Shown here piece after piece: positions 127-48,310 of a stretch of 64,000 nucleotides of DNA. The stretch comes from Colwellia sp. (GTDB taxonomy: Bacteria; Pseudomonadota; Gammaproteobacteria; Enterobacterales; Alteromonadaceae): the NCBI GenBank assembly GCA_013215385.1, contig JABSOY010000024.1:1-64000 (forward strand), given 5' to 3'. The notes beneath the pieces were generated by a model, which did no database searches, had not been told where the DNA came from, and saw nothing but the letters and a program-made list of their open reading frames with translations. Every line of letters starts with the position of its first letter. Within the stretch, counting starts at the first letter, position 1. The translations under genes and the position numbers were made by a program.

Positions 127-1354
127 CTATACTTTCACTGCAAAAGAATTGACTAAGTTAGAGCAGTCGAGTGTGATGATATTAAGTAATGATCAATTTG
201 TTTTTAATAATGAGCTTATTGCACTTGACTGGGATAACGTTTTTGACAGTTATTTTCCTCACTTAAAAGACTATCAAGATACTATCATGCATTATGCAGG
301 TTATTACAGTATAAACCCCAAGCTTTTAATTTCTTTAATTGAATCTAAAAGCAAATTAGTATCTTCACCTTCAAAAAAAGCTTTTATGTCACCGTTTGGT
401 GAACTGTCTACTCAGCAAGGATTTAAAGCACAAACAAAAGACGTTGCCAGTAAATTAACGAAACGCTTTTATGCTTACAGAAAGCTTGTACTAAATATTG
501 AACCATCAAAAAATATATTGTTGAAAGAGCGTAGACCTACTTCAGCAGCGACAGTGGCTTTAACTAGTTTGTTGGCCTCTTTGGATCAGGAAACTCAAAC
601 GGCGAAAGATGATGGGTTCTTAGATAGAACTAAAACGAAAAGAAAACAAAGAGCACCCAATGAAATTCGAATAGAAAAAACTAAAGTAAATGACGTGCTT
701 AGTGCCTATGAAAATATATTTTTTGAGCAAAGAAACAAATTGCTTAAGGAGTCTTCAACAGGCTTATTTGAAAAAGTATCTAGTAAAGATAAAGTTCAGA
801 AAGTTAGTAAAGTGGCTGCCAATGAGCCATATTTATACTTGCCTTGGAGCAGTGGTTGGAGTTGGGCTGTTACAGGAGGAGCTCATGGTTTTGATGGTAG
901 TTCGTGGCCATTATCTTCTCTAGATTTTGCTTATACAGCAGGAAGCTCTTGGTGGGGAGGAGATAAACCACCTGTATACGCCGCCCATGGAGGCGTAGTA
1001 ACTTGGCTATCAAGTTGTCAAATGCGAATTACTCATTCATCGGGTATTGCGACGAGCTATTATCATATGGATAATTTGCAATATGCTTCAGGAAGTTATA
1101 TTTACGCTGGTACCTATATTGGTCGCTATGCTAATGATAAAAGTCAGGCTTTATGTGAAGGAGGTCAATCAACTGGTCCACATTTACATGTCTCATTGCT
1201 TAAAAATGGCTATTACCAATCTTTGCAAGGTCGTTCTTTAAGTGGTTATTGGATTCAAACAGGTAACTATAGCTACGATTCTGATTGTACGAGAAGCTTC
1301 TTATGGAAAAACGGCTATACATATTGTCCAGGAACCAATATTTACAAGCCATAA
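2..1354 (+). CDS. M23 family (LasA/beta-lytic type) metallopeptidase, 5' end outside window
   Basis: This is a probable secreted zinc endopeptidase that cuts peptidoglycan cross-bridges or glycine-rich proteins. The C-terminal half has the M23A signature: GGAHGFDG with a zinc His, SSLDF with a zinc Asp, YYHM and GPHLH with the catalytic and zinc His residues, in LasA order. The frame is open to the left edge and includes four DTHPINK heptads, then DTHPISI and DTHQISK. The first usable codon inside the frame after the repeats is TTG at 149, which has no ribosome-binding site, so the real start probably lies upstream of the window. The stretch before the catalytic domain (about codons 50-270) is lysine-rich and could be a propeptide. 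The domain call is firm; the repeat being translated is inferred from frame alone. Confidence 0.8.
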   Translation, partial: THPINKDTHPINKDTHPINKDTHPINKDTHPISIDTHQISKDYTFTAKELTKLEQSSVMILSNDQFVFNNELIALDWDNVFDSYFPHLKDYQDTIMHYAGYYSINPKLLISLIESKSKLVSSPSKKAFMSPFGELSTQQGFKAQTKDVASKLTKRFYAYRKLVLNIEPSKNILLKERRPTSAATVALTSLLASLDQETQTAKDDGFLDRTKTKRKQRAPNEIRIEKTKVNDVLSAYENIFFEQRNKLLKESSTGLFEKVSSKDKVQKVSKVAANEPYLYLPWSSGWSWAVTGGAHGFDGSSWPLSSLDFAYTAGSSWWGGDKPPVYAAHGGVVTWLSSCQMRITHSSGIATSYYHMDNLQYASGSYIYAGTYIGRYANDKSQALCEGGQSTGPHLHVSLLKNGYYQSLQGRSLSGYWIQTGNYSYDSDCTRSFLWKNGYTYCPGTNIYKP

Positions 1355-1415
1355 AAAGCGTTAAGGGTTGCATTAAATATGCTGAGTAATATAACTCATT
1401 CTTAAGTTTGAATTA

Positions 1416-1449
1416 AAGGTTTATAGCGAAGTTATAAACCTTGTTTTCT
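1416..1449 (+). terminator. Probable rho-independent terminator of the M23 peptidase gene
   Basis: A perfect 10-bp stem (AAGGTTTATA paired with TATAAACCTT, 7-base loop) is followed by TGTTTTCTT, about 60 bases after the peptidase stop codon. Confidence 0.6.
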
Positions 1450-1492
1450 TGCATTGCGATAAAAGATGACAACTTTGGATTTATTATTATAA

Positions 1493-1542
1493 ATTGCATT
1501 GCTCGGGGAAAATGCAATATTTGGCCACAAATCATTGTGGCC
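1493..1542. other. Two adjacent hairpins in a 376-bp gap
   Basis: In the gap 1355-1730, ATTGCATT (1493-1500) pairs with AATGCAAT (1511-1518). Four bases later GGCCACAA (1523-1530) pairs perfectly with TTGTGGCC (1535-1542) over an ATCA loop, followed by a T-rich stretch. They could be a second terminator, a small RNA end, or protein-binding palindromes upstream of the CadC-like regulator. The rest of the gap is very AT-rich with no ORF. Confidence 0.45.
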
Positions 1543-1730
1543 TATATTTTAATTTCGCATTGAAATAGGCTTATAACTATTTTTATTATATATTTCCTTT
1601 TAATTATTAGTTCCTCAAACAATATTTCCTATATATTCTTATATATATCTATTTTTATATGCTGGTATTTATGAGCAGAATAACTTTCCCACTTTTTTTA
1701 GTAACGAAATTTCAAGTGGCGGCTGTTTAG

Positions 1731-3371
1731 GTGAACTCTAACTGTTATCAGATTGGAGCGTTTCTAGTTGACCTTGATGTAGGGTTATTACAGTCTAAAG
1801 GCATAGAACAAAAATTACCGACACTTTCACGAGAGGTATTACTTTGTTTAGTTAACAGTGCCCCAAAGATTGTTACACAAGATGAATTGATCTCAACTGT
1901 ATGGAAAGGTGTCGTTGTAACAGATGAAAACTTGCAGCAACGAATTCGTCTTATTAGAAAGGCTTTAGGAGATGATAGTAAGAACCCTGAGTATATAGAA
2001 ACAATTCGAGGCGTTGGCTACCAGCTCATCGCAGAGACTCAAAAAATTGAGTGCATCGATGAAAATAAACTTGATATTAGCTTGGTGCCTCAATTACTAA
2101 ATAGAGTTACAGCTTCTTGTCATAATATTATGCCAAAGAATAAAAAAAACAGAATTCGCCTTTATTTAGGCATTACTTTTTTTATATTCATCGCTGTAGT
2201 TTTGATAAGCTATTTTACCAAAGGCATTGCTCCCTTAGTCGATATTAAAAATCATTCAAATGATGTTAAGGAAAATAGCTTTTATGCGCAAGGAATGACA
2301 TATTATAAAAGATATCGAAAGAATGATAATCAAATAGCTATTCAACTTTTTAAACAATCCATTGATGATGACCCTGAATATGCTCCAGCTTATGCAGGAC
2401 TTGCTAATTCAATATTACAAGGGGTTTATCAGTATGATTTTTCTATTGATAAGTTAGAAGAGGCGCTATCTATTATTGATGAAGGGTTAACTAAAGATCC
2501 GATGGTTGCTCAATTGTATAAAGCAAGAGGCTTTGCAATGGCATTAAAAGGACATTACGGAAAAACAATTGAAGCATACCATCAGGCAATAAATATTGAT
2601 CCTACATTACATGACGCTATTACCAATTTGGCCTTTACTTATCGAGAGATCGGTCAACTCAACCAGGCACTTAAATGGCATAAACAAGCTATTTACCTTG
2701 TCCCTGACTCTGCTGGTGGTTATCAACACCTAGCGCAAACATATGCAGCTCTTAATATGCCTGAAGAGGCAGAATATTGGTTCAATAAGTCAATTTCTTT
2801 AAAGCCTGACTATTCCCTTGGTCGAGTATTCTACGGAAACTACTTAAATGGCGTTGGTGAATATGGTAAGGCGATAGAGCAAGCCCAAGAAATACTAAGG
2901 TTGACACCAAGCTATATCAGAGCAAAGAATGTTATTGGTGATGCTTATTATTATTCCAGTAGTTTTGATAAGGCTATTCCGTATTACCAAGAGGTCGAAG
3001 CATCAGTGGGTCGTAATAAAGAGTATGCGGCTTTGCGTTTGGGGGTTCTGTATGCTTTGATAGGCGAAGATAAAGCATCACTTGTTCGATTGGAACCTAT
3101 TTCTAAGTCGTTGAATTTGAAAATTGAGCGTGGAGCTCAAGATCCTGATATCATGCTTGATTTAGCTCGTGTTTATGCAGTAAGAGGTGAAGATAAAATT
3201 GCTAATTATTGGTTGAAAGCTGCCTTTGATGCAGGGGAAATCAAATATCACCTAATAATTAGAGAACCTGCTTTTATGGTGCTTTCAGCCACTCCTGAGT
3301 TTCAAATAATTATAAAAGAGATGAAACTCAAACTTTTTCATCTTCGTCAAAATACACCGTTTTATAGATAA
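1731..3371 (+). CDS. CadC/ToxR-like transmembrane regulator with TPR repeats
   Basis: This is a one-component regulator of 546 residues. Residues 1-105 form an OmpR/ToxR-type winged helix (LSREVLLCLV, QDELISTVWKG, LQQRIRLIRKALGDD, IETIRGVGYQL). One membrane helix follows at about 147-165. The rest is a periplasmic part of roughly eight TPR-like repeats (for example PEYAPAYAGLANS). DNA-binding and sensing are therefore joined across the inner membrane, as in CadC, but the input domain is TPR-like rather than CadC's own sensor. The start is GTG with little Shine-Dalgarno signal; the winged helix begins soon after it, which supports the start. No target gene is identifiable. The downstream region holds gene debris only. 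Confidence 0.85.
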   Translation: MNSNCYQIGAFLVDLDVGLLQSKGIEQKLPTLSREVLLCLVNSAPKIVTQDELISTVWKGVVVTDENLQQRIRLIRKALGDDSKNPEYIETIRGVGYQLIAETQKIECIDENKLDISLVPQLLNRVTASCHNIMPKNKKNRIRLYLGITFFIFIAVVLISYFTKGIAPLVDIKNHSNDVKENSFYAQGMTYYKRYRKNDNQIAIQLFKQSIDDDPEYAPAYAGLANSILQGVYQYDFSIDKLEEALSIIDEGLTKDPMVAQLYKARGFAMALKGHYGKTIEAYHQAINIDPTLHDAITNLAFTYREIGQLNQALKWHKQAIYLVPDSAGGYQHLAQTYAALNMPEEAEYWFNKSISLKPDYSLGRVFYGNYLNGVGEYGKAIEQAQEILRLTPSYIRAKNVIGDAYYYSSSFDKAIPYYQEVEASVGRNKEYAALRLGVLYALIGEDKASLVRLEPISKSLNLKIERGAQDPDIMLDLARVYAVRGEDKIANYWLKAAFDAGEIKYHLIIREPAFMVLSATPEFQIIIKEMKLKLFHLRQNTPFYR

Positions 3372-3969: not shown

Positions 3970-6900
3970 TTATTCAGGTTTTAAATGTTTTTCCAACATT
4001 TTACTCAATTGCTCAATATTTACTGGTTTGGCGATATATCCATTTGCTCCTGCTTGAAGACATTTTTTGTCATCTCCGGGCATAGCGTTCGCAGTGACTG
4101 CAATAATGGCTAACGAAGAAAATTTTTCTTGTTGTCTTATGCGCTCCATCGTTTCATAGCCATCCATTTCAGGCATCATTATATCCATTAAGACCAAATC
4201 AATATCATTATCTTCTGCTAACATTGATAAACATTGTGCACCACTTGAGGCAATACGTACTTCAAGTTGGTACCTACGAAGAACTTTAGCCAGTGCAAAA
4301 GTATTTCGCATATCATCATCAACAAGTAATACCGAAAACCCTTTTAAATTCAGCCCTGCTTCACTCGTTTGATTACTTACCTCCGTTATTTCATTTGCCT
4401 CAGTCGACGCTACTTCTGGGGAAGGTGCGCTTGAGTTATCAGTAACTGCCGAAGAGTCTTTAACTGTTTCTACTTTTTTTGGCGATAACGTTTTAGCTGA
4501 CTGTTGCGGTTCTTGGTTAACTGGTGCCGATATCGGCCTGATTTGCGCAGCTGAGTTCATTTCTCCATCATCATCTTCGACCACATGTTCGACAAATGAG
4601 TGCACTGCCGTTAGTAGTTTTTCGTTAGAATGGCTAGATTTAATGACAATACGATCGGTGAACAGTGCAAGGTGTATTTTCTCTTGCTCTGAGAGATCTT
4701 TACCGGTATGAATAATCACTTTGGGTGGGTCAATTAATTCATCTTTAACTAAAATATCAAGTAAGTCTATGCCTGATAAATCGGGTAACCCCAAGTCTAA
4801 TATCAATACTTCATAGACTTGGTGGCGCAAAGCTATTAAGGCTGCTTGTGCACTGCGAACCCCTTCAGTAGTAACACTTTCACGTCTGAGTAAACGTTTG
4901 ATGGCAAATAAGCTGGCAGAATCATCTTCGACGATTAAGACATTAATAGGTTTCAACCTATTATTCGTCATTGACTGGATAATGTTGGTCATTTTCGCAT
5001 GACTTATTGGTTTTGTTGCCTGATCCATAGCGCCAAGTTCACGTAAATCTCCAAGAGTATCTAATGCACTAACTATATGTACCGGAATATGCTGTGTTTT
5101 AGGGTCTTCCTTTAAATTAACTAATATATCGATGCCATTTAAACCAGGAAGCATATAGTCTAAAATTATGCCGCTGAAGTTATATTGGTGTACCAAGGTT
5201 AAGCCCGACTCTCCATCGTAGGCAATAATGGCTTGGCAATTTTGTTTGTGGCATTCATCAAGGACAATTTTTGCAAAATTAACATCATCTTCAATAATTA
5301 ACAGCAGGGACTTCTTTTTATCCAGAGCCGAGCGATCATCAAAAGCGGGTAGAGCATTGCTTGATGTTTTTGCCATAGTTAATGATTTTGAAGAAGCTAG
5401 ATTTGATGAATTTATATTTGCAGAAAAAAGATTTGGAACCCCGTTATCTTGCAATGCTTTCTTGAGTGGCAGGTATAAAGTAAAACTACTGCCTTTGCCC
5501 AACTCACTTTCAACCTGTAAATCTCCTCCTAATAAATGAGCAAAACTTAAGGATATAGATAAACCAAGACCAGTACCGCCATGGGTTCTGCTGGTTGAAC
5601 CATCAGCCTGCTGAAATGCTTCAAAGATTGCACCATACTTATCATCAGCAATGCCAATGCCAGTATCCTTAATGGTAAATGCAATAACATCACTGGTACC
5701 AGCAAGTATGCCAGACTCTGTTTTGGCGTTGATAAGTATTTGTACCAAACCTTGGTTAGTAAACTTAATTGCATTACTAACCAAATTATTGATGATCTGA
5801 TTTAGTTTGATAATGTCGCTAACAAAGTGCTCAGGTAAGTTGCTATTCATGTGCACTTCAAATGCGATGGATTTATCTTGTGCCATATGTTGAAAACGGT
5901 GGGTGAACTCACGTTCAAAATTAGCAATAATAATTTCGTCATCGATGACCGTCATTTGTCCGGATTCTATTTTTGATAAATCGAGTATCTCATTGATTAA
6001 TTGCAATAACTGTCGTCCACTGTCCTGAATGACTTGGGCAGAAATAACGTCATCTTCGGTAAGGTTGCCTTCGTCATTGTCCGCCAATATGCCAGATAAA
6101 ATAAGCAGACTATTTAATGGCGTGCGTAATTCATGGGACATATTTGCCAGGAATTCTGATTTATATCGGCTTGCTTCCTCTAGTGCCTCGGCTTTTTCTT
6201 CTGTTTCTTTTTGAGCACTTACTAAAGATAATTTTTGTTTTTCTAATACTTTGCTTTTAATGGTTAATTCATTATTGATAGTTGATAATGCTTCAGACTT
6301 ATCCTTTAATTTTTGCTCTGAAATTTTTAATTGCTGAGTTTGCTGTTGCAAGGTATCATTTGAGGTTTGTAATTCGGTTTGTTGTTCTTGGGTTGTTTGT
6401 AGTAACTCTCTGGTTTGTCTTAAGTTATAAGCGAAATCAAATGCTATGGCGATAGCATCGGAAGATAGCCTAAGTATTTCCAGATACTCAGGACTTATTT
6501 GTTTGAAACCACCAATTTCTATCACCCCTTTAACTTTATTATTGGTAATAAAAGGGGCGACAATCACTTGGCTAACTTCGGATCTTCCTAATGCCGAATT
6601 AACATAAAAACAATCATTGAGGTTATCGTCTATCACCAAAATCTTTTGTTCAACCGCACATTGGCCTAGGAGACTTTCACCAAAATTTAATTGGTGTTTT
6701 AATTTATCGATATTAGGGTAGGCATAGCCACCACTAAAATTAAGTAAGTCTTCATTTTTAGTGGCATCGATGGTGAATAAAACTGCGACATTGGCGTTAA
6801 AAATCCTAGTGAAATAGCTGGATATTTTGTTCGCTAACGGCTCTATTTCATTGTCACCATTGGTAATTTCGGCAATTTCCGCCAAAGAGGTATTAAGCCA

Positions 6901-8430
6901 ATTTTGACGCTCACTTGATAATTTAGTATTACGCAAGTTAAGGGTCATACTTTGTAGGGATTTGCCTAATATATCTTTGTCTGAGCGTGGGTGAATATTT
7001 GCGTCATAGTTACCCTCGGCAATATCTTCTGACTGATTTACTACGTCTTGCATTGCTGAATTTAACTGGATCAGGCTTTGCACTAAAACATCATTGTCGC
7101 TTCTCTGGCTTATTGTTCGAGTTAGATCACCGACCGAAAGTGCCTTTATTATATCTGTCACATCTTGAAAAGAATCGACTAGTTCGTGAAAGGTTGCGTT
7201 TAACATGCCTATTTCATTATCTGGAAATTTGATGTCACTTTTAGTTAAGCGTCCTTCAGCAATTTGACCTGCCCAGCGGGTTAATTTTATTACCGGGTTA
7301 ACAATAGCCCGGGTGCTGTGAATTGATAATAAAATGACTATCACCATAGTAGATAGCAGTACCATGGCTACTTGCCATATTAATGTATGTAATGGCATTA
7401 ATGCTTCACTCTCCTCTATTTCTGCAATGAGCATCATGGGCACGCTGGCAAATGAAATAGGTATTTGCACACTATAAACGGCTTGACCTCGATAGCCTTG
7501 ATAAAGTTCTAGTTGCTCTAGGGTGTCTTCTTTAATAATGTCTTGTGCTTGTGCTTGCCATAATTTCGTGTTTTGTGTTTCGACTTTTGTTATTAAAAGG
7601 CTAGGCTCTACATCAAAGCGCGAGTTAGAGCGCATTAATAAGTCATCACCCAATAAAAATGCTTCTCCGCTAGTACCTAGGCCAGTATTTTCCTGCATAA
7701 TATTATTGATTGGTGACAGGGATAAATGAATGGCTAGCAGGCCAAGTTTATCACCATACTCATCAACGACAGCCTGCACCAGAAAACTGGCGACATTATT
7801 ATTGTAGGGTGGGTAAACTTCCATATCGCTGTATACCGGAAAGCCAGTTTTAAGTGCTTTTTGGGCAGCCAAGCTAAAAGCACTTATTTTAGCTTGGTTG
7901 CTGAAAATGTTAGACCCTAAATCATGGTCTTTTCGAATGCTGTACAGCACATTGCCTTGATCATCTAATAACAAAATATCAACATAATCGTAAGTGGTTA
8001 AAAAACGGGAAAAATCACCGCCGTATTCTTCTTCAAGTGTTACCCACTGATATCCTTTGGTTAATTCAGCTAAAGATTTCTTTTTGCTTTTATTCCTTAA
8101 GGCATTATTATCTTGATGAGCACTTTTCATCGCTTCCAGAAAACTGACGGTATTTTCAAGTTCTGCTTGTAGCCTTAAGTTGGTTATGGTCGATTTAAAA
8201 TAGGCGGCTAACTGATCGTGTTTCGCTTGGGCAATGGCATCGAGTTTATTGGTTTGATTATTAGTAATTGTTTGTACACTATTTTGGATACTCATCCAGA
8301 CGATAAAAGCCATAGGTAAAATAGAGATAAGTAGAAAACGTATGAGCAAACTTCTGCCTAATCCAGCCGAAAATAAACCACCAAAAAATTTCGGCAACTG
8401 TTTACCTTTAAAAGAATCATCCTTATTCAT
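3970..8430 (-). CDS. Hybrid sensor histidine kinase with GAF and three receiver domains
   Basis: This is an inner-membrane phosphorelay kinase of about 1486 residues. Order: TM1 (about 27-48), periplasmic Cache-like sensor (50-340), TM2 (350-370), HAMP (372-425) and a second HAMP-like segment, GAF (510-665), coiled coil (670-755), HisKA with the phosphoacceptor in SHELRTPLNS (His766), HATPase with NLVSNAIKFT and GTGLGLS, then three receivers with Asp1091 (ILDYMLPG), Asp1212 (LILDLGLP) and Asp1416 (LVLMDIMMP). No Hpt domain is visible, so an Hpt partner may lie elsewhere. The frame extends to 8541 but would then overlap the upstream gene by 83 bp; the ATG at 8430 (MNKDD) leaves a 28-bp gap and keeps TM1 near the N-terminus. 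It is probably co-transcribed with the binding protein and GGDEF-EAL genes upstream. Confidence 0.9.
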   Translation of the reverse strand: MNKDDSFKGKQLPKFFGGLFSAGLGRSLLIRFLLISILPMAFIVWMSIQNSVQTITNNQTNKLDAIAQAKHDQLAAYFKSTITNLRLQAELENTVSFLEAMKSAHQDNNALRNKSKKKSLAELTKGYQWVTLEEEYGGDFSRFLTTYDYVDILLLDDQGNVLYSIRKDHDLGSNIFSNQAKISAFSLAAQKALKTGFPVYSDMEVYPPYNNNVASFLVQAVVDEYGDKLGLLAIHLSLSPINNIMQENTGLGTSGEAFLLGDDLLMRSNSRFDVEPSLLITKVETQNTKLWQAQAQDIIKEDTLEQLELYQGYRGQAVYSVQIPISFASVPMMLIAEIEESEALMPLHTLIWQVAMVLLSTMVIVILLSIHSTRAIVNPVIKLTRWAGQIAEGRLTKSDIKFPDNEIGMLNATFHELVDSFQDVTDIIKALSVGDLTRTISQRSDNDVLVQSLIQLNSAMQDVVNQSEDIAEGNYDANIHPRSDKDILGKSLQSMTLNLRNTKLSSERQNWLNTSLAEIAEITNGDNEIEPLANKISSYFTRIFNANVAVLFTIDATKNEDLLNFSGGYAYPNIDKLKHQLNFGESLLGQCAVEQKILVIDDNLNDCFYVNSALGRSEVSQVIVAPFITNNKVKGVIEIGGFKQISPEYLEILRLSSDAIAIAFDFAYNLRQTRELLQTTQEQQTELQTSNDTLQQQTQQLKISEQKLKDKSEALSTINNELTIKSKVLEKQKLSLVSAQKETEEKAEALEEASRYKSEFLANMSHELRTPLNSLLILSGILADNDEGNLTEDDVISAQVIQDSGRQLLQLINEILDLSKIESGQMTVIDDEIIIANFEREFTHRFQHMAQDKSIAFEVHMNSNLPEHFVSDIIKLNQIINNLVSNAIKFTNQGLVQILINAKTESGILAGTSDVIAFTIKDTGIGIADDKYGAIFEAFQQADGSTSRTHGGTGLGLSISLSFAHLLGGDLQVESELGKGSSFTLYLPLKKALQDNGVPNLFSANINSSNLASSKSLTMAKTSSNALPAFDDRSALDKKKSLLLIIEDDVNFAKIVLDECHKQNCQAIIAYDGESGLTLVHQYNFSGIILDYMLPGLNGIDILVNLKEDPKTQHIPVHIVSALDTLGDLRELGAMDQATKPISHAKMTNIIQSMTNNRLKPINVLIVEDDSASLFAIKRLLRRESVTTEGVRSAQAALIALRHQVYEVLILDLGLPDLSGIDLLDILVKDELIDPPKVIIHTGKDLSEQEKIHLALFTDRIVIKSSHSNEKLLTAVHSFVEHVVEDDDGEMNSAAQIRPISAPVNQEPQQSAKTLSPKKVETVKDSSAVTDNSSAPSPEVASTEANEITEVSNQTSEAGLNLKGFSVLLVDDDMRNTFALAKVLRRYQLEVRIASSGAQCLSMLAEDNDIDLVLMDIMMPEMDGYETMERIRQQEKFSSLAIIAVTANAMPGDDKKCLQAGANGYIAKPVNIEQLSKMLEKHLKPE

Positions 8431-8458
8431 TTGAGAGCTAGCCTTTATTTTATGGTCA

Positions 8459-9640
8459 TTATTGAATGGTAATAGCGGTTGCGAAACTTTCATCGGTAAA
8501 TGCATCCAGATCAATGGGCGAACGTAAAATCCCTCCTTCAACCGCTAAATCCATTATCATTTTCATGCCCGGCTTTTCTGTATTTAAATTTTGGTAGTTA
8601 ATAACATTGAGATCTATTCTAAGACTTTGAATAATGGCTTGTTCATTGTGCTCTGGAATATGTTTGCGCACCATAGTAGCGATATCTATTATAGCTTGAC
8701 CGCCTTCATTCCTGGCGGCTTCAATGTCTAAACCTGCCTGATGAATGTAATATATCACTTCGTTAATCGCCGCTCGCTTGTCTTTAATCGCTTGATCTGA
8801 GGCTAAAGCAATACATTCAACATGCCCTTTTGGCCAAGGTAATACATCTTTGGAGTACCAGGCAACGTGGCCAAAATTTTGTGTTTCTACGACATCGGCC
8901 CAGGGCAAGGATTGTTCAAATGAAGCTGCGATACCTTTGCTGTTTTGACGCTTAATAAAGGCAGGCGCTTTAGGTGGTGCTACTGCGATGGCGATAACGT
9001 CTTTGTCGTTACCTCGACCAATACCCAAGGTTTTTCCATGGTCTTTTAAATATTTATAGAGTACCACCATATGGGTGGAAAATAATGAAGGAACACCTAC
9101 TTGACTGGGGCGACCCATTTGTTGCTTGACCTTGGTATAGGCATTTGCTACTTTTTCATCAGGATGGCGGTCTTCTCGTTTTTTCGGAAGATTAACATGT
9201 TGATTAATTAAATCGTTAATCGCCAGAGCATTGCCATCACGATGCATTTGCCCGATCCACTTAAATGTTGGACTTACTCGGTACATGTCCATGGCGAGTG
9301 GACTCATCACAAATGCCATATCGGCTTGGCCATCGAGAAAGTATGCTCTTAACAAGGGCCAGCTTTTCATTCTTGATAGGGTAAAGTCGGCATGTTTCAT
9401 TTTGCTGCGATACTTTTCAAAAGCAATAAGTGCGGCATAATGATCAGCAAGGGGAATATAGGCTGCGTTAACCGATTGTTTTAGTGAAACATCAGATGAT
9501 TGATCAGCGGCTATGGCCATATGGCTTAATATACTGGTCAAAAAAATTATTAACACTCTAGGTATTAATTGTTTTATTACAGCGCTCATTCCAGAAAACA
9601 TAAATATGACTGCTTTGCTAATACTAGAGGTGTTTTTCAT
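8459..9640 (-). CDS. NMT1/NrtA-like periplasmic substrate-binding protein
   Basis: This 393-residue protein has an N-terminal signal segment (about residues 20-44, ending near MAIAADQSS). It resembles the nitrate/sulfonate/thiamine-precursor binding family (NrtA/CmpA/SsuA): an early AAYIPLADHYAA strand, a DGQADMAFVMSPLA turn, and GVPSLFSTHMVV at the second lobe. No ABC permease or ATPase is adjacent. It sits between a GGDEF-EAL regulator and a hybrid kinase, so I infer that it feeds ligand information to the kinase's periplasmic domain rather than to a transporter. AAGGA lies upstream of the ATG, and the gap to the upstream gene is 44 bp. The ligand cannot be told from sequence. Confidence 0.8.
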   Translation of the reverse strand: MKNTSSISKAVIFMFSGMSAVIKQLIPRVLIIFLTSILSHMAIAADQSSDVSLKQSVNAAYIPLADHYAALIAFEKYRSKMKHADFTLSRMKSWPLLRAYFLDGQADMAFVMSPLAMDMYRVSPTFKWIGQMHRDGNALAINDLINQHVNLPKKREDRHPDEKVANAYTKVKQQMGRPSQVGVPSLFSTHMVVLYKYLKDHGKTLGIGRGNDKDVIAIAVAPPKAPAFIKRQNSKGIAASFEQSLPWADVVETQNFGHVAWYSKDVLPWPKGHVECIALASDQAIKDKRAAINEVIYYIHQAGLDIEAARNEGGQAIIDIATMVRKHIPEHNEQAIIQSLRIDLNVINYQNLNTEKPGMKMIMDLAVEGGILRSPIDLDAFTDESFATAITIQ

Positions 9641-9684
9641 TAAACGGTATCCTTACTATTTTCTTCAATTAATATTTAGATTTT

Positions 9685-11565
9685 TTACTTAGGTGCTTTT
9701 TCTGAATCGAGTTTGTCACTCAACCATTTTTTGAAATCGTTATAAGGCAAAGGTCTACTGAAATAATAGCCCTGTGCGTAATCACAACCTTCTTGTTGTA
9801 AATATTGCCATTGTGCTTTTGTTTCAATTCCTTCGGCGATAACTTTTAAACCTAAGCCATGTGCCATGGCGATTATTGCCCGTATCAAGACCATATCTTC
9901 TTTATCATCAGGTACACCACTTACAAAACTGCGATCAATTTTTACGGTATTTATCGGGCAGCGTTTAAGGTAGCTTAAGGCCGAATAACCTGTGCCAAAA
10001 TCATCAACAGATAGATGGATACCCAGATCTGACATTGATTTTAAATGTCGGTTAATTTCTTCAGAATCTTCCAATAACAGGCTTTCGGTTATCTCTATTT
10101 CTAAATCCTCTGCCTTGATTATACCGCTGTCGATTTTGTCTTTTACTTGGTGATATAAATCAGCATTTTTAAACTGCAAGGTAGAGGCATTAATAGCTAC
10201 AACGAGCTTTAATTTTGGCACTTGCTTAAATTGACTTCTAATTTCTTCTAATTGGGTAATGGCTGAATCTAAAACCCAAGCACCAATATCATGTATAGAG
10301 CCATTGGCTTCAGCTATAGGGATAAAATAGTCAGGTGGTATCATGCCTAACTCTTTATTGTTCCATCTTAATAACGCTTCAGCGCCATAGACATCAGCAG
10401 TTTTGACCTCGACAATCGGTTGAAAATATACCTCCATTTCTTGTTTTTGAATAGCGAGACGTAATTGCTGTTCTACTTGTTGTCGCTTGTGGGCCGCAGC
10501 ATCCATTTCTTCAGAAAAAAAGCAAAAGCTATTTCTTCCTTGAGATTTTGCTTTATACATAGCGATATCGGCAAAATCGATTAATTTATCAGGGTTGTCA
10601 ATTTGATCGGGGTAGACACAAACTCCGATACTGGCACTTAGTTGGATTTCTTCGTGTTGAAATTTCATTGGTTTATGTGCCGACAACAATACTTCATTGA
10701 TCCGCCCGGTTAAATGTTGTGCATTATTGACATCAGTCAAGAGAATAATAAACTCATCGCCGCCATAACGGGCGACGGTGTCAGTTTTTCGTACTAAGTA
10801 TTCAAAACGTTCAGCAATAGTTTTTAACACTTGATCGCCAATTTTGTGACCTAGGCTATCGTTAACCGCTTTAAAACCATCGAGGTCAACAAATAATAAA
10901 GCGAATTCACTCCCTTGTCGGTCCGCTCTGAACGCAGCTTTTTCTATATCAATCACTAATTGTCGCCGGTTCGGCAGTCCGGTCAATAAATCATGATAAG
11001 CTAAGTAGAGGTTTTTCTCTTCTAAGTCAATACGGGCTTTTACTTCAAGCTCTAGCCCATTTTTTAATCGCCACAGCACCATAAATAAAGATATTTTAGC
11101 CGTTAATATTTCCGGTTGAATAGGCTTGGTAATGTAATCAATAGCACCAGAGGAATAACCTTTTAAGATATGTTGTTCATCGCGATGGACCGCAGTTATA
11201 AATATAATGGGTATATTCAGAGTTTGTGGTTCTTCACGTAGTAATTCTGCCGTTTCGTAGCCATCCATTACTGGCATTTGTACATCAAGGAGGATTAATG
11301 ATAAATTTGGCAGGGAGATCGCCTTTGCTAGGGCTTCTTGACCATCTTCAGCCTCAATTAAATCCGCCTCGACATGGCGAAGCAATCGGACCAAAGCCAA
11401 CCGATTCGCTTTTAAGTCGTCGACAATTAAAATGATAGGTCGATCTAGTTTCATCATAACAATAGGTAATCTGAGGTTACTCAACAGAAGTATAAGTGTT
11501 ATTTTGAATTTATCCTGTAATTTATCCTGTAATTTATCCTGTAATTTATTGTTCATACTACTCAT
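9685..11565 (-). CDS. Response regulator with GGDEF and EAL domains (c-di-GMP turnover)
   Basis: This 626-residue protein has a receiver (about 43-165, phosphoacceptor Asp94 in ILLDVQMP, Lys in TKPI), then GGDEF (RYGGDEF, 268-272) with an inhibitory I-site RKTD five residues before it, then EAL (EALLRW, 396-401; EITESLL; DDFGTGYS; KIDRSFV). Both catalytic motifs look intact, so it could make and break c-di-GMP, with the balance set by phosphorylation, probably from the kinase two genes downstream. The N-terminus is odd: a KLQD repeat and a short hydrophobic stretch precede the receiver. Met37 or Met38 (MMKLDRP) may be the true start. No candidate start has a strong ribosome-binding site. Confidence 0.9.
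   Translation of the reverse strand: MSSMNNKLQDKLQDKLQDKFKITLILLLSNLRLPIVMMKLDRPIILIVDDLKANRLALVRLLRHVEADLIEAEDGQEALAKAISLPNLSLILLDVQMPVMDGYETAELLREEPQTLNIPIIFITAVHRDEQHILKGYSSGAIDYITKPIQPEILTAKISLFMVLWRLKNGLELEVKARIDLEEKNLYLAYHDLLTGLPNRRQLVIDIEKAAFRADRQGSEFALLFVDLDGFKAVNDSLGHKIGDQVLKTIAERFEYLVRKTDTVARYGGDEFIILLTDVNNAQHLTGRINEVLLSAHKPMKFQHEEIQLSASIGVCVYPDQIDNPDKLIDFADIAMYKAKSQGRNSFCFFSEEMDAAAHKRQQVEQQLRLAIQKQEMEVYFQPIVEVKTADVYGAEALLRWNNKELGMIPPDYFIPIAEANGSIHDIGAWVLDSAITQLEEIRSQFKQVPKLKLVVAINASTLQFKNADLYHQVKDKIDSGIIKAEDLEIEITESLLLEDSEEINRHLKSMSDLGIHLSVDDFGTGYSALSYLKRCPINTVKIDRSFVSGVPDDKEDMVLIRAIIAMAHGLGLKVIAEGIETKAQWQYLQQEGCDYAQGYYFSRPLPYNDFKKWLSDKLDSEKAPK
11507..11551. repeat. 12-bp tandem repeat at the start of the GGDEF-EAL gene
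   Basis: Three exact copies of AATTTATCCTGT (11507-11542) and a partial fourth encode Lys-Leu-Gln-Asp repeats on the reverse strand. Twelve is a multiple of three, so copy-number change would not shift the frame. Confidence 0.9.
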
Positions 11566-11911: not shown

Positions 11912-13264
11912 CTAATCGCGCTTTTGACCAAATATCATGTTTTTTTGTGTATTTTTCTTTGAGTACAGTTGTTTTTGTGAAACCTTCCACGGATTCCAAG
12001 CGTCAAAATAACTCACTTTATGAATTAACTCCATCATATGAGCATAGGTGCGAACCGGACGCATTAAAAAAGTACTGTACAATGGCATTAGGACCAAAAG
12101 TAATGAGATCTGTAGTTCTTCTTTCTTGATGGTATCTCCTAATATCAATAATGCGTATATGTATTGCAGTACATTAGAAATAAGGTATAAAACATAATTA
12201 ACCAATAAAATAATATGTAATGAATCAGTATGAAAAACAACAATGTAAAAAAAATACACCCACCATTTTATGTTCATGGCAAAGTTAAAAACGACATTTT
12301 CCATAATGGTAATAAAATTTAAAAATGAAAAATTACGATTAAATATATTGAGTAAATCTCTGTGGCGACGCAAACGAAAACGAACTAAAGAACGATCCCA
12401 GCGAAAACGTTGTTTTGCTAATTTGGTAAACTTTACCGGTACATTTGTATAACAAATTGCATTGGGTTCATGGACAACTTTGTAGCCAAGTTTACGAAAG
12501 CGAATAGTGATATCGCCATCCAGTCCAGGACCTACATCCCATCCTTTAACTCGATTTAGTGCATCAGTACGAAAAGCGCCAAAGGCACCAGAAATAATTC
12601 GCAATATGCCAAATGCACTCGCAATAGTGCGTGCCGTCGTTATCGTTTTTATGTATTCCAGGCTTTGCAATGAAGCACAAACCGACGCTTGTAGATTATT
12701 TACTCTGACATCTCCGCCAACCGCAGCAATATTATCGTCCAGATAAAAGTGAATCAACATTTTTTCCAATGCATCATTTCTCGCTAATGTATCAGCATCT
12801 AAGTGAACAACAAACTTACCTTTACAAAAACGTAAAGCTAGATTTGCAGCAGAGGCTTTGCCTCCGCGTTGTTCATTACGGAAAAAGTTAGTAATCAAGC
12901 CACGCTTCAATAGGTGCCTTGCAATGGTTGGCGTATCATCATTTGAGCCATCGTCTACTACTATAAGTTCAAGGTTTTTATAGGATTGCTTTTTTAATGA
13001 ACGTGCTAATTTATATAGATTTTTTCCTTCATTTTTTCCTGGAACTAAGACGCTTACTAACGGACTTTCCATAAAAAGCTGTTGCCGCGCCAATACCTTT
13101 CGATCTTTGAGTCTATAGCTATCAATAAAGTACTTTATTAAACCAATACCGTTAATCACGATATAGCGTAAAGAGTCTACAAAGAAAAAATACCAAAATG
13201 TTACTATTATCTCGAAAAGTGATAAACGGCTGATGAAGTTTAATGCATCATTTAATAACTCCAT
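11912..13264 (-). CDS. Processive family 2 glycosyltransferase (polysaccharide synthase)
   Basis: This membrane synthase of 450 residues resembles PgaC/HasA-type enzymes. An N-terminal membrane segment (about 15-45) precedes the GT2 domain, which has VSVLVPGKNEG, VVDDGSND (Asp104/105), HLDADTL (DxD, 156-158), GPGLDGD (249-251) and QRFRW (285-289), the QxxRW signature of processive enzymes. C-terminal membrane helices (about 310-420) would form the translocation channel. It is the last gene of a four-gene operon; its ATG overlaps the upstream stop (TAATG at 13262-13266), implying coupled translation. Sugar specificity cannot be assigned: poly-N-acetylglucosamine, hyaluronan-like or another beta-linked polymer are possible. 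No PgaB-type deacetylase is present, and the outer-membrane partner is TolC-like. Confidence 0.85.
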   Translation of the reverse strand: MELLNDALNFISRLSLFEIIVTFWYFFFVDSLRYIVINGIGLIKYFIDSYRLKDRKVLARQQLFMESPLVSVLVPGKNEGKNLYKLARSLKKQSYKNLELIVVDDGSNDDTPTIARHLLKRGLITNFFRNEQRGGKASAANLALRFCKGKFVVHLDADTLARNDALEKMLIHFYLDDNIAAVGGDVRVNNLQASVCASLQSLEYIKTITTARTIASAFGILRIISGAFGAFRTDALNRVKGWDVGPGLDGDITIRFRKLGYKVVHEPNAICYTNVPVKFTKLAKQRFRWDRSLVRFRLRRHRDLLNIFNRNFSFLNFITIMENVVFNFAMNIKWWVYFFYIVVFHTDSLHIILLVNYVLYLISNVLQYIYALLILGDTIKKEELQISLLLVLMPLYSTFLMRPVRTYAHMMELIHKVSYFDAWNPWKVSQKQLYSKKNTQKNMIFGQKRD

Positions 13265-14415
13265 TACAGAAGAAGCCCCATGAGCTCATTAGCATCAATA
13301 CTTTTAGTAATAGGCTGTAGTTTTGATGAGATTGGCACATGAAAATTAATGCTCGATTTTAATAGTTGATCAACGTCATTTAACAGGCGCTCCATTACTA
13401 TTTTTGAATTCTGCTCTGGTGTTTCTATCAGTAAACCAACAATAGTACTTTCATTACTTGCTGAAACTAAGTCGCTACTACGTAAACGTATTTTAATGAG
13501 TTGAGTTAATTCGATAAAAAAACCTTTTGCTTTTTCTCCAAGCTCTAAGTATAGAGATTCAAGATCACTGATTTCGATCTTAAATAAACAACTGTTACTT
13601 ACTTGATAGCGGTGAATACGGGCACTCTCTATATGAACAAAACGGTCAAAAGTGCTGAAATCTACTGCGTTAAAAACTTCTTTTACAACAGCCTGCAACA
13701 TATTCTCTAAGCCATATAAAGCCGCATGTTTTGACAATGCACTTAACTCGAAGCTTTTTATTTTACGATGCACGAGATCATCGGGAACGCTTTTACTATG
13801 GCAGTTGTAACAAGTGGTTGTTATTTGTGCATCTTGAAAGTCATGGTGACAGTCGTTGCAATGATAAACTATTGAAGGTTTATCATAGTCAGCACCAATG
13901 TGTTTCAGTGTCTTTTCACATTTGGGGCAAACCATTTCACCATTTCCCTGTAAAAAGGCGTCTTTGTTATCTACATAAGCACAATAAAAATGATGGATAA
14001 GTTCATTCATTTTTAAATTACTACTTTGGCAGTGAGAACAAGTTTCCTGGAAATTTAAAAAAGCAGATTCACAACTATTACATTGATAACTCTTCTCTAT
14101 TTCTTTACTTAGTAACAGATTGTGTGATTCAAGAAATTCTAAGGTATTAAGCAAAGAATGGTCTTGGCTGTCAAAAAAAGGTTCTAATATGGGGTATCTA
14201 TAGCCGTATTGACTGGTAATTGTTCTGATCGGTTCGATATTTTTTTGATGAATATATAAATACCTGAGTATTTTAAAGGCTATTTGAATATCTTCAGCTT
14301 GAGGTTTTATTAACTCTTTTATTCGTGTTGTGCACGTAATAAACTGGTTTCTAATTTGCTGAATACTATAGGCGTCGAGCTTATCGGTTAATAGTAATGC
14401 ATCAGCTAAATTCAT
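13264..14415 (-). CDS. Zinc-ribbon regulator (TackOD1-like) with degenerate GGDEF-like C-terminus
   Basis: The intact part is 383 residues and has five CxxC pairs (112/115, 126/129, 163/166, 186/189, 202/205), enough for two zinc ribbons, in a layout like TackOD1 proteins. Residues about 225-365 resemble a GGDEF fold (FDRFVHIESARIHRY, SNSCLFKIEISDLESL) but have no GGDEF motif, so any nucleotide role would be sensory or structural. It probably regulates the adjacent glycosyltransferase. The ATG at 14415 is the first usable start after an in-frame stop; the same frame continues upstream for 78 codons with protein-like sequence, so the gene is either N-terminally truncated or damaged. The TackOD1 assignment is from memory of the family pattern and is moderate. 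Confidence 0.65.
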   Translation of the reverse strand: MNLADALLLTDKLDAYSIQQIRNQFITCTTRIKELIKPQAEDIQIAFKILRYLYIHQKNIEPIRTITSQYGYRYPILEPFFDSQDHSLLNTLEFLESHNLLLSKEIEKSYQCNSCESAFLNFQETCSHCQSSNLKMNELIHHFYCAYVDNKDAFLQGNGEMVCPKCEKTLKHIGADYDKPSIVYHCNDCHHDFQDAQITTTCYNCHSKSVPDDLVHRKIKSFELSALSKHAALYGLENMLQAVVKEVFNAVDFSTFDRFVHIESARIHRYQVSNSCLFKIEISDLESLYLELGEKAKGFFIELTQLIKIRLRSSDLVSASNESTIVGLLIETPEQNSKIVMERLLNDVDQLLKSSINFHVPISSKLQPITKSIDANELMGLLL

Positions 14416-14649
14416 TGCCGGAGCTATATTTTGTAACGGCGAACAAATAAATATAATAGGTGTTAAATAAACCGCGGGTGAAGGCTGTTGACGAATACTT
14501 CTTAAGTACTTATTTGCTATGGCTAAATCACTTGCATCAATATAGATAATATCCGCAATGGTGACATCACATTCATCTTCAAAAGAATATAACTTGGCAT
14601 TTTTTAGTTATTCAGGGATAACTGATTGTTTAGAAAGATAAAATTCCAT
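14416..14649 (-). pseudogene. Receiver-like N-terminus cut off by an in-frame TAA
   Basis: ATG at 14649 begins MEFYLSKQSVIPE, then TAA at 14608-14610, then the frame continues without break (LKNAKLYSFEDECD, ADIIYIDASDLAIANKYLR, YLTPIIFICS) into the Met at 14415. The strand/helix pattern and the Asp in IYIDASD suit a receiver or pseudo-receiver fold. The ATG sits one base after the upstream gene's stop, exactly where an operon start is expected, so this is very probably the original N-terminus. A single base change (CAA, GAA or AAA to TAA) would explain it. No ATG, GTG or TTG codon lies in frame between the stop and 14415. Confidence 0.75.
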
Positions 14650-14650
14650 A

Positions 14651-15622
14651 TTACAACTCGAATGTTAGGTTGACCGAAAAATTTGCAGATCGTTTAAGTA
14701 GGGAATCATATTGATGTGTTTCGGGTATTAAGCGAATTACCACTGCACTGGCTACATCAGAACTAACCGCCTGAAATTGACTGTTTTCCGGGTTTACTTG
14801 TACTACCTTTGCAGTGAAGTTAACGTTGGAAGTGCCATTATCGAAGGTAACTTTAGCGATCGAGCCTGGTTTCAAGTGGGAGAATGTATCAACAGGCACT
14901 AAAGCATCAATCCAAATTTGTGCATCATTTGGGATAAAGGTCAGTAAAATGCTACCGGCGAGAACAAATAGCCCTGGTTGAACATGTATTTTTTCAATTT
15001 TACCTGTATGTTGATTAAATACATCAACGTGTTTTTTTTTATTTTTCTCAATGACAATACTGTCCAACTCTTTCAGGTGAATCACTTCTGCTTCATTTTG
15101 TTTATTTAAGTTAAACAAGCTATCGTCGATGATATGAATACTCTCAGTTTTCAAGCGGATTTTATCTTCAAGGTTTAATCGTGTTTCAAACATAGCTGAT
15201 TTTTCAAAGTTAATTAACTCCTGCTTCAATCGTTCCTTTCGAGCTTGTAAACTGGTTTTTTTTGCGAGCATTGCAACAAGTTGCTTTTCTACTCTAAGTT
15301 TTTCATTGAGAAAAAATGCTGTTGGCATTTGAATATGACTAATAGTGAATACTTTTTCATCTTTGGAAATAGTATCAAAAGCCTGTTTGTTTATTTTTTC
15401 GACGATACCAGCAACCGGTGCGGTAATACTGTGAGTTTGAATATTTATCATGCCATCCAATTTAGCGAAATACATGCGTTGATATGCATAATTACTAAGA
15501 TAGGCGACAACAAACACTAAAAAACCATAATAGAAAAAACGGGTCAGACGATACGCCAACGTTATACTTGGGGGTTGAGCGCTACTTGCATTGATATAGT
15601 TTAATTTTTTACGTAGTTTCAC
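14651..15622 (-). CDS. HlyD-like periplasmic adaptor (membrane fusion protein)
   Basis: This 323-residue inner-membrane anchored adaptor has one TM helix (about 27-47), a split lipoyl/barrel-sandwich region (SITAPVAGIVEKI early; HTGKIEKIHVQPGLFVLAG late), an intervening coiled-coil hairpin (about 95-195), and a C-terminal beta-barrel (WIDALVPVDTFSHLKPG). It would bridge the inner-membrane glycosyltransferase and the TolC-like outer-membrane protein. Start is GTG at 15622, overlapping the upstream TGA (GTGA); its stop is one base before the old start of the zinc-ribbon gene. There is no ABC transporter in the operon, so it probably serves polysaccharide export in the manner of Alg44-type adaptors; that role is inferred. 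Confidence 0.8.
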   Translation of the reverse strand: MKLRKKLNYINASSAQPPSITLAYRLTRFFYYGFLVFVVAYLSNYAYQRMYFAKLDGMINIQTHSITAPVAGIVEKINKQAFDTISKDEKVFTISHIQMPTAFFLNEKLRVEKQLVAMLAKKTSLQARKERLKQELINFEKSAMFETRLNLEDKIRLKTESIHIIDDSLFNLNKQNEAEVIHLKELDSIVIEKNKKKHVDVFNQHTGKIEKIHVQPGLFVLAGSILLTFIPNDAQIWIDALVPVDTFSHLKPGSIAKVTFDNGTSNVNFTAKVVQVNPENSQFQAVSSDVASAVVIRLIPETHQYDSLLKRSANFSVNLTFEL

Positions 15623-17583
15623 AGTGGATTTCCAGTATAGGAGAATAAGGTCATAAGCTGTCGAAGGTTCTTTAAGAAAACAGTATTTTTAGGTTGATTA
15701 GCAAGTTGACGATTAATGTGCTCTTCCAGTGCTTGCTCAGAATTAATCTTGCTTAAATCGATCAAAGTGACAGGTTCTTTTTTCAAGTGTGATATTTCGC
15801 TTATATTGTCTAACAAGGCTAACCATTGAGTCAGTTCAATATTGATAACCTGCAATGAGGGGCTGGTTAAAACAAATTGCAACGAAATTCTCGATATGGA
15901 TTCGAGACTAAAAGATAAAAATAACGTCTTAATTACATGCTCAATTACCTGTTCATTTTCTATTGGACCTATGGTCAACGATAGGTTTTTATGATTTTTT
16001 AATAACTCAGGGAGTGCTTTAAGCTGTTGGTTAATGTCGGGAATCCTTATCGCTAAAGAATGTTTAATTTTATAACGACCAAGTTTTTGTACCAGCTCTT
16101 GATATTTAGGCTGTTTAATGATGTCGATATTAAATACTGCGGTATCAATGTTTTTGGTGAAAAAAAGTTTAGTTATTGCATCAATATCATTAATGAATAT
16201 TGAATTCTTTTCAATTAAGATACTTCTTTTACCATGCCGTGCTCGGTTATCCAGCGGCGAAGGAATATTAACTTTAATCAGCTGCGATTTATCATAGGGC
16301 GCTTTATTATATAGCTGGATATTAACAAAGTTACGATATAGCAACTCCGTAGTATTTACTAAAGCCAACTTTGAATAAAAATATTCCAGTAGTTGTTTAT
16401 TTAACAAATTCTGGCTAGCTAAGTTATTTTGTTCTTGGTACTCAAATAATGCTCGTCTAAGTCGTTCTCGGCTAAGTGATAAATTGAATTGAATATCTAT
16501 TGCAGCAGTGAGCTTATTTTGATGCTCAACGTATGAACTACGGAGTTGTTTTTCAATATCAGCTTGGGTTATTGCAAAATCCAATGCTTTTTTGTCAACT
16601 TGATAATTTTTGAAGTGCTTCTTTCCTGAGAATAAAGGTAAGCTATATCTAAGTCCAAGAGTCCATTCATCTTTAAGGTTATTAAATGAATTGTCGTCAG
16701 CCAAATTAGTGCTAGTACCGTATCTGACATAGAGTTTTAGCTTTTGCTGGATTAATGAATCGCGTTCTTTATTAAGTAATGTTTCTTGAAGTTTTTTTAG
16801 TTTAGCTTGTTGTTGACTTGATTGATGTTGATATAAAATTTCGTTAATATCTAAATCAAATAGAGGTAGTAGGTTTGATGATTTTTTTACATGTTTTTTC
16901 TGTGATATTGTTGCATATTGACGCTCATTCATTGCCTTAAGCAAGGTGATTTCTTGAACTCTCTTTTCTTCTTTGATAATCTCATCAATAAATATTTGTT
17001 TTGAAAAATAGGATTTTTTTAATGTGCGGATATAATCTGAACTATAGGAAAGAATGTCTTCTATTGCTTGTATTCTATATTGACTAAATATTTTACTAAG
17101 AGCTGCTTGTTGGCAAAGAGCTTGATTTTTTTTCTGTTTATCTACAGCCTTTAGTTGAAAAAGGTCATATTCAGCAGCCATAATTTTTTGTGTCAATTTA
17201 TTTTCGTAATATCCACCACCTAATAAGTGAAATGCGAGTCCAATATAGGCCGAACTATTACTATCATGTGAAATACGCAAGCCTGATTCCAGATCCATTT
17301 CAAGTAATTTGATATCTTTATTTGCTTGATATTTAATTTTTTTTAATAGCGCGTCAATGTCTTTATTTTTACATGGTATGTTTAAAATTTTTTGTATGGC
17401 CAAATCTGGCTGATCGTAGCTTTCCTCTGTTTGCATTATTTTTAAAGCTTGTTCGATAAAGTCGCTGTTAGGCAATGTTGCCTGCGCTTTAGTAATTAAG
17501 CTGGCAACAACAAACAAGCTTATAAAAATGCCAAATACTACTATGCAATTGAGCACTCTATCCTTCCTGATCATTGTCGTCAT
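15619..17583 (-). CDS. TolC-like outer-membrane efflux protein with extra C-terminal domain
   Basis: This protein has 654 residues; usual TolC-family length is about 420-490. A signal segment (about 10-35) is followed by two long helical repeats with short strands typical of outer-membrane efflux proteins (YIGLAFHLLGGGYYENK; WTLGLRYSLPLFSGKKH; helices around 140-235 and 340-430). Residues about 445-654 form an added alpha/beta region (RSILIEKNSIFINDIDAITK, LSLTIGPIENE, ISRISLQFVL) that I cannot assign; it would be periplasmic. It is the first gene of the export operon, about 100 bp downstream of aceF, with AAAGGA upstream of its ATG. Confidence 0.75.
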   Translation of the reverse strand: MTTMIRKDRVLNCIVVFGIFISLFVVASLITKAQATLPNSDFIEQALKIMQTEESYDQPDLAIQKILNIPCKNKDIDALLKKIKYQANKDIKLLEMDLESGLRISHDSNSSAYIGLAFHLLGGGYYENKLTQKIMAAEYDLFQLKAVDKQKKNQALCQQAALSKIFSQYRIQAIEDILSYSSDYIRTLKKSYFSKQIFIDEIIKEEKRVQEITLLKAMNERQYATISQKKHVKKSSNLLPLFDLDINEILYQHQSSQQQAKLKKLQETLLNKERDSLIQQKLKLYVRYGTSTNLADDNSFNNLKDEWTLGLRYSLPLFSGKKHFKNYQVDKKALDFAITQADIEKQLRSSYVEHQNKLTAAIDIQFNLSLSRERLRRALFEYQEQNNLASQNLLNKQLLEYFYSKLALVNTTELLYRNFVNIQLYNKAPYDKSQLIKVNIPSPLDNRARHGKRSILIEKNSIFINDIDAITKLFFTKNIDTAVFNIDIIKQPKYQELVQKLGRYKIKHSLAIRIPDINQQLKALPELLKNHKNLSLTIGPIENEQVIEHVIKTLFLSFSLESISRISLQFVLTSPSLQVINIELTQWLALLDNISEISHLKKEPVTLIDLSKINSEQALEEHINRQLANQPKNTVFLKNLRQLMTLFSYTGNPL

Positions 17584-48300: not shown

Positions 48301-48310
48301 GGGTACATTT

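Follow-up and report, generated by a model that had tools for sequence, protein, structure and literature searches.

How might a polysaccharide synthase pass its product to an outer-membrane channel when the operon that encodes both contains no pump? The question is raised by four minus-strand genes at positions 11,912 to 17,583 of a 64,000-nucleotide stretch of Colwellia sp. (GenBank assembly GCA_013215385.1, contig JABSOY010000024.1, positions 1 to 64,000 of the forward strand; hereafter the window). These genes encode a TolC-like protein, an HlyD-like adaptor, a regulator with TackOD1 zinc ribbons and a glycosyltransferase family 2 (GT2) synthase. We consider it probable that they specify a synthase of the Mxd kind, named after the mxd cluster of Shewanella oneidensis, that is gated by cyclic dimeric guanosine monophosphate (c-di-GMP) and whose polymer is exported via an HlyD-TolC conduit. 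The initial annotation placed four genes here, and all four open reading frames (ORFs) were confirmed, with the following features:

15619..17583, minus strand: TolC-like outer-membrane channel protein, 654 amino acids, first gene of the operon
15619..16245, minus strand: extension at the C-terminus of the TolC-like protein, residues 447-654; relatives have a predicted glycosidase-like (beta/alpha)8 domain at the same place
14651..15622, minus strand: HlyD-like periplasmic adaptor, 323 amino acids, GTG start, Pfam HlyD_3
13264..14649, minus strand: full reading frame of the MxdA-like regulator from ATG 14649, interrupted by a stop; read from the frame and the alignment of relatives
14608..14610, minus strand: in-frame TAA, codon 14 of the regulator
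13264..14415, minus strand: longest intact ORF of the regulator, 383 amino acids, with TackOD1 zinc ribbons and a degenerate GGDEF domain bearing RxxD (R312-D315)
11912..13264, minus strand: MxdB-like GT2 synthase, 450 amino acids, with D-x-D and QxxRW motifs

The TolC and HlyD genes overlap by 4 bp and the TackOD1 and GT2 genes by 1 bp. Coupling by 1-4 bp, which the initial annotation had described throughout the operon, thus holds at these two junctions. It fails between the HlyD and TackOD1 genes, where the gap is 1 bp solely if translation starts at ATG 14649, in a frame with a TAA at codon 14, and is 235 bp from ATG 14415. The analysis supported the coupling of a processive-type synthase with an HlyD/TolC pair in an operon that lacks a pump gene.

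The regulator matches Pfam TackOD1 at 2.7e-52, the synthase Glycos_transf_2 at 3e-27 and the adaptor HlyD_3 at 7.8e-12; a profile of the adaptor family matches the solved EmrA structure 8zar at 1.9e-19. For comparison, the mxd locus of S. oneidensis was located by an exact match of its published promoter primer (PMC3691769), on which its identity rests; the primer has one match in 129 genomes of its genus, and searches of 196 and 7 genomes from two other genera gave no match. The locus encodes a TackOD1 protein (462 amino acids), a GT2 (442), an HlyD (362) and a 122-amino-acid protein; its MxdA matches TackOD1 at 4.7e-71 and GGDEF at 1.1e-04, the latter below the cut-off. Judged by sequence, the window regulator is homologous to MxdA, the synthase to MxdB and the adaptor to MxdC, so that the earlier suggestion of a wholly undescribed system has to be withdrawn. 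The mxd genes form a putative exopolysaccharide cluster required for three-dimensional biofilm structure (PMC3691769, PMC7666153). From its position, the 122-amino-acid ORF is presumably MxdD; no homologue was found in any of the 34 other loci described below, window included (best match 0.51), which makes it a poor criterion of membership. Membership of the window operon in mxd proper is ruled out by gene order and synthase clade.

Matches to TackOD1 above the cut-off were present in 17 of 295 genomes of the order and 15 of 398 of the phylum, in samples that overlap; weaker matches, in four and three genomes respectively, were left out. The set of 35 loci was made up of these samples, S. oneidensis and eight loci (L001-L008) of the nine to which synthase similarity had led. 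The ninth, L009, was excluded, as it matched over only part of the protein, at 26% identity; L001-L008, having been found through the synthase, were not chosen independently of it. A GT2 gene follows TackOD1 in all 35 loci (in L007 the two are separated by 570 bases and a small ORF), and HlyD is present in 33 of the 35, L066 carrying a fragment at a contig edge and L001 and L007 being cut by contig ends. TolC is encoded within the cluster at 13 loci, and a TolC profile search gave the same 13 and no others. Ten of them (the window, L002-L006, L008, L037, L067 and L075) share the window order, and three (L063-L065) have the order TackOD1-GT2-TolC-HlyD. Looking for the four-gene order in other genomes had been proposed with the initial annotation, and it is indeed seen in distant genomes across phyla, in Bacteroidota and in other Pseudomonadota. 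This recurrence of the gene set indicates that the arrangement is not due to chance.

Two of the genomes carry further features of note. Genome G555 has two TackOD1-GT2-HlyD loci (L068 and L069) with unusually long GT2 proteins (603 and 724 amino acids as called). Beside the Mxd-type locus L045, the start of an ORF at 274-2247 (minus strand) reads like a PgaB deacetylase, and the edge of the locus holds a GT2 fragment; this is possibly a Pga locus adjoining an Mxd-like one.

The channel assignment is carried by the N-terminal part of the TolC-like protein. A profile of this part from eight relatives matches the window protein at 4.1e-27 among 105 window ORFs (runner-up 0.14). When six relatives were scanned with Pfam OEP, L065 (7.1e-09) and L003 (5e-05) passed the cut-off and L005 (0.005) fell below it. 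By homology of its N-terminal part to these relatives, L065 and L003 included, the window protein is classed as TolC-like.

An extension of about 200 residues or more is present in nine of the 12 complete TolC proteins, the window's counted, and is lacking from three Bacteroidales proteins (L005, L006 and L008; 458-479 amino acids). All eight relatives keep a D-x-E motif (D-[IVL]-E) in it. A profile of the extension from seven relatives and the window matches 10yv, labelled putative glycoside hydrolase family 97 (GH97), at 1e-07, while its matches to a designed protein (0.006) and to GH18 relatives and chitinases (0.05-0.1) were not significant. Low-confidence models of the window protein and of its Roseivirga relative L002 (mean predicted local distance difference test scores of 37 and 45) have eight strands alternating with helices in the extension. 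A Foldseek search with the L002 model returned a GH18 chitinase first (7.3e-05) and the C-terminal domain of PgaB fifth; unrelated TIM-barrel enzymes fill ranks 2-4 and make up the majority of the 50 rows listed, so that the list supports a barrel at most. The relatives' domain profile fails to find the window extension, whose kinship with theirs is therefore read solely from position and predicted secondary structure. Among the relatives, the Roseivirga TolC-like proteins (L002 4222-6486 and L003 4166-6478) start with a LysM domain, giving single proteins that combine LysM, TolC-like and barrel-like parts, and that of genome G451 (L075 5960-8770, minus strand) is 936 amino acids as called, far longer than its relatives.

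Residues D156, D158 and Q285-R286-x-R288-W289 of the synthase are invariant across nine aligned relatives. Its best NCBIfam match is PgaC/IcaA (TIGR03937), at 164.2 bits against an equivalog cut-off of 422.3; Pga, cellulose and other named synthases were rejected as identities, all lying far under their cut-offs. In a midpoint-rooted tree with two long outgroup rows, 13 window-type synthases form a clade (support 98/92) that spans Pseudomonadota, Bacteroidota and Gemmatimonadota and includes L001, L007 and L066, whose TolC place is not visible. This clade is separate from the 19-row branch of MxdB (100/100), to which the window synthase is 26% identical. A TviB-like uridine diphosphate N-acetylglucosamine dehydrogenase adjoins the window-type loci L004-L007 and also L037, there on the opposite strand, and another lies near the TolC gene of genome G518 (L076); two of these dehydrogenases score 481 and 466 bits (cut-off 592). 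None stands beside the window operon; in the window genome a 54% identical one is encoded on a different contig. A polymer of amino sugars or aminouronic acid is only a guess, because the PgaC match is below its cut-off and the TviB-like gene is not beside the operon.

The C-terminal part of the regulator has a GGDEF fold (family profile against the solved GGDEF structure 3ign, 3.3e-12) from which the GGDEF motif itself is absent. Five residues before the place of that motif stands RxxD, a candidate I-site for c-di-GMP. RxxD occurs in 26 of 28 non-Bacteroidota proteins (the exceptions, L035 and L069, miss the arginine) and in none of seven Bacteroidota proteins, the alignment of this region being uncertain in five of the seven. 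Searches for GGDEF domains covered 16 of the 34 genomes from which the loci come, with controls matched in 8 of 14 named genomes. Matches were found in none of the seven Bacteroidota genomes, which are of unstated completeness, and in all nine others, at 6 to 82 each. This co-occurrence of RxxD with GGDEF cyclases fits the c-di-GMP binding reported for MxdA (PMC7666153, PMC11395469), which also contacts CheY3 (PMC7666153). TackOD1 has been described in archaeal response regulators and some bacteria, with an obscure function (PMC5847659), and the I-site pattern provides a concrete candidate c-di-GMP site for this family. The window regulator retains both RxxD and the zinc-ribbon cysteines.

We hypothesize that the MxdB-like GT2 polymerises a sugar, perhaps N-acetylated, and pushes the growing chain across the inner membrane, where the HlyD-like adaptor would join the synthase to a dedicated TolC-like channel. 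Since the adaptor would link synthase and channel, polymerisation would replace an ATP-binding cassette (ABC), resistance-nodulation-division (RND) or major facilitator superfamily (MFS) pump. The TackOD1/degenerate-GGDEF protein would act as the c-di-GMP receptor via its RxxD I-site and license the synthase, like PelD, a degenerate GGDEF protein of the Pel system that binds c-di-GMP at its I-site. For the putative glycosidase-like barrel that is fused to TolC in the relatives, a possible role is to shorten the chain or steer it within the periplasm. A synthase-driven tripartite route of this kind had been put forward in the initial annotation and is the best reading here, but as an idea it is already in print for cyanobacterial cellulose.

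The surroundings of the operon bear on its origin. A close synthase (E <= 1e-60) was found in two of 59 genomes searched, the window's own counted, and in none of the five other same-genus genomes. The flanking gene aceF is present in three of six same-genus genomes, again counting the window's own, and the operon is not beside it in the other two. When the 44 window ORFs are ordered by rising G+C, the four operon genes take places 1, 4, 6 and 9, and this low G+C together with the patchy same-genus occurrence fits horizontal acquisition. An RNA element such as a c-di-GMP riboswitch was rejected, the Rfam scan of the window having no match at gathering score, and promoter and terminator scans gave fewer matches than shuffles (17 against 28.0 and 2 against 3.6). 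Starting 346 bp past the operon on the same strand (3970-11565, minus) are genes for a REC-GGDEF-EAL response regulator, an NMT1-like solute-binding protein and a 1523-amino-acid hybrid histidine kinase, which may act together as a sensing unit controlling local c-di-GMP. Elsewhere in the window, an HlyD-type adaptor and an AcrB-type RND pump are encoded at 47116-51418 (plus strand), and the next gene downstream encodes a TonB-dependent receptor, not a TolC.

Several observations weigh against a working c-di-GMP-gated synthase with its own conduit. Pfam OEP gives no match to the window TolC-like protein up to E = 1, nor any to three of the six relatives scanned (L037, L067 and L002). Of the 32 loci in which the place of TolC is visible, 19, among them that of S. 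oneidensis, gave no TolC (L001, L007 and L066 stop short of this place, and a more divergent or unlinked TolC would escape the profile), which means that the Mxd kind can do without a linked TolC. In the window extension T-I-G (T537-I-G) stands in place of D-x-E, and the regulator frame from ATG 14649 is broken by TAA at codon 14 (14610-14608). The stretch after this stop can be aligned to the N-termini of 24 relatives, the fit being close for L037 and L001 and loose for the others, so that the regulator gene itself is interrupted, apparently by mutation or assembly error. Given the TAA and the loss of D-x-E, the window copy may not work. It is thus conceivable, if rather unlikely, that the operon functions in relatives and that the window holds an acquired, degenerating copy making no c-di-GMP-controlled polymer. 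The stop, the lost motif in an extension unrecognisable to the domain profile, the absence of a close synthase (E <= 1e-60) from five same-genus genomes and the low G+C (ranks 1, 4, 6 and 9 of 44) would all suit such decay. However, the TolC, HlyD and GT2 genes have intact frames, the catalytic motifs of the synthase are preserved, and so are RxxD and the zinc-ribbon cysteines of the regulator; the stop might stem from an assembly error, or a shorter working protein might be made from the start at 14415.

Gating by something other than c-di-GMP appears improbable. The TackOD1 protein could control the synthase by protein contact or through the metal or redox state of its zinc ribbons, as might be supposed from a domain whose function is not known (PMC5847659), from the contact of MxdA with CheY3 (PMC7666153) and from the arginine missing in two non-Bacteroidota proteins (L035 and L069); yet MxdA is reported to bind c-di-GMP (PMC7666153, PMC11395469), and all seven proteins from the seven GGDEF-less genomes are without RxxD, the alignment there being uncertain in five. 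We regard it as very improbable that the TolC/HlyD pair serves a transporter elsewhere, such as the RND pump at 48311-51418, with the synthase a neighbour by chance. The adaptor-RND pair at 47116-51418 has no TolC beside it, and 19 Mxd-type loci do without a linked one, but that pump has its own adaptor, and HlyD accompanies the synthase in 33 of 33 uncut loci and TolC does so in 13, with two gene orders represented and several phyla. Such recurrence of the synthase-HlyD-TolC arrangement argues against service to a distant transporter.

Beyond the preferred reading of a c-di-GMP-gated Mxd-type synthase exporting through HlyD and TolC, we tentatively entertain, with more doubt than conviction, a distinct secretion class that crosses phyla: a c-di-GMP-gated GT2 in place of the pump of a TolC tripartite conduit, an outer-membrane channel with a glycosidase-like barrel of its own, a polymer containing an aminouronic acid produced by a linked TviB-like dehydrogenase, and Bacteroidota carriers without the c-di-GMP site. 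If this is true, those carriers, in which no diguanylate cyclase was found here, would have kept the machine and lost the receptor's c-di-GMP site. The Mxd papers cited here leave the polymer's crossing of the outer membrane unstated, and the operon-encoded TolC is a candidate exit. A literature search, which covered full texts in part only, found no earlier description of the TolC-bearing gene order; nor did it turn up an account of a TolC encoded in the operon, of the glycosidase-like extension of this TolC or of a separate clade of synthases.

Compared with known systems, the operon resembles mxdABCD most in its clustering of a TackOD1/degenerate-GGDEF regulator, a GT2 synthase and an HlyD-like adaptor. 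The order in S. oneidensis, however, is A-B-C without TolC, against TolC-HlyD-TackOD1-GT2 in the window; MxdB belongs to another synthase clade, at the low identity given above; and the 122-amino-acid MxdD has no counterpart in the window. With Pel it shares a degenerate GGDEF domain bearing an I-site, as in PelD, but Pfam and NCBIfam name no Pel genes in the operon, and TackOD1 zinc ribbons take the place of GAF. The poly-N-acetylglucosamine synthase PgaC/IcaA is the best NCBIfam match of the window synthase, whereas no PgaA, PgaB or PgaD model matches among the four operon genes. EmrA adaptors include a solved relative of the adaptor family (8zar), but the operon is without an MFS pump and the window adaptor scores 37.7 bits against a cut-off of 390.8. 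Closest in proposed mechanism is the XcsA-XcsB-TolC route for cyanobacterial cellulose, in which synthase, HlyD-like adaptor and TolC are likewise proposed as a tripartite route, so far experimentally unvalidated (Maeda 2018, via PMC12430437). There the synthase has its own PilZ domain and the Thermosynechococcus vulcanus genes are scattered, whereas here a single operon carries TackOD1-GGDEF instead of PilZ, and this TolC-encoding version makes the idea of a synthase acting as a pump testable within one operon.

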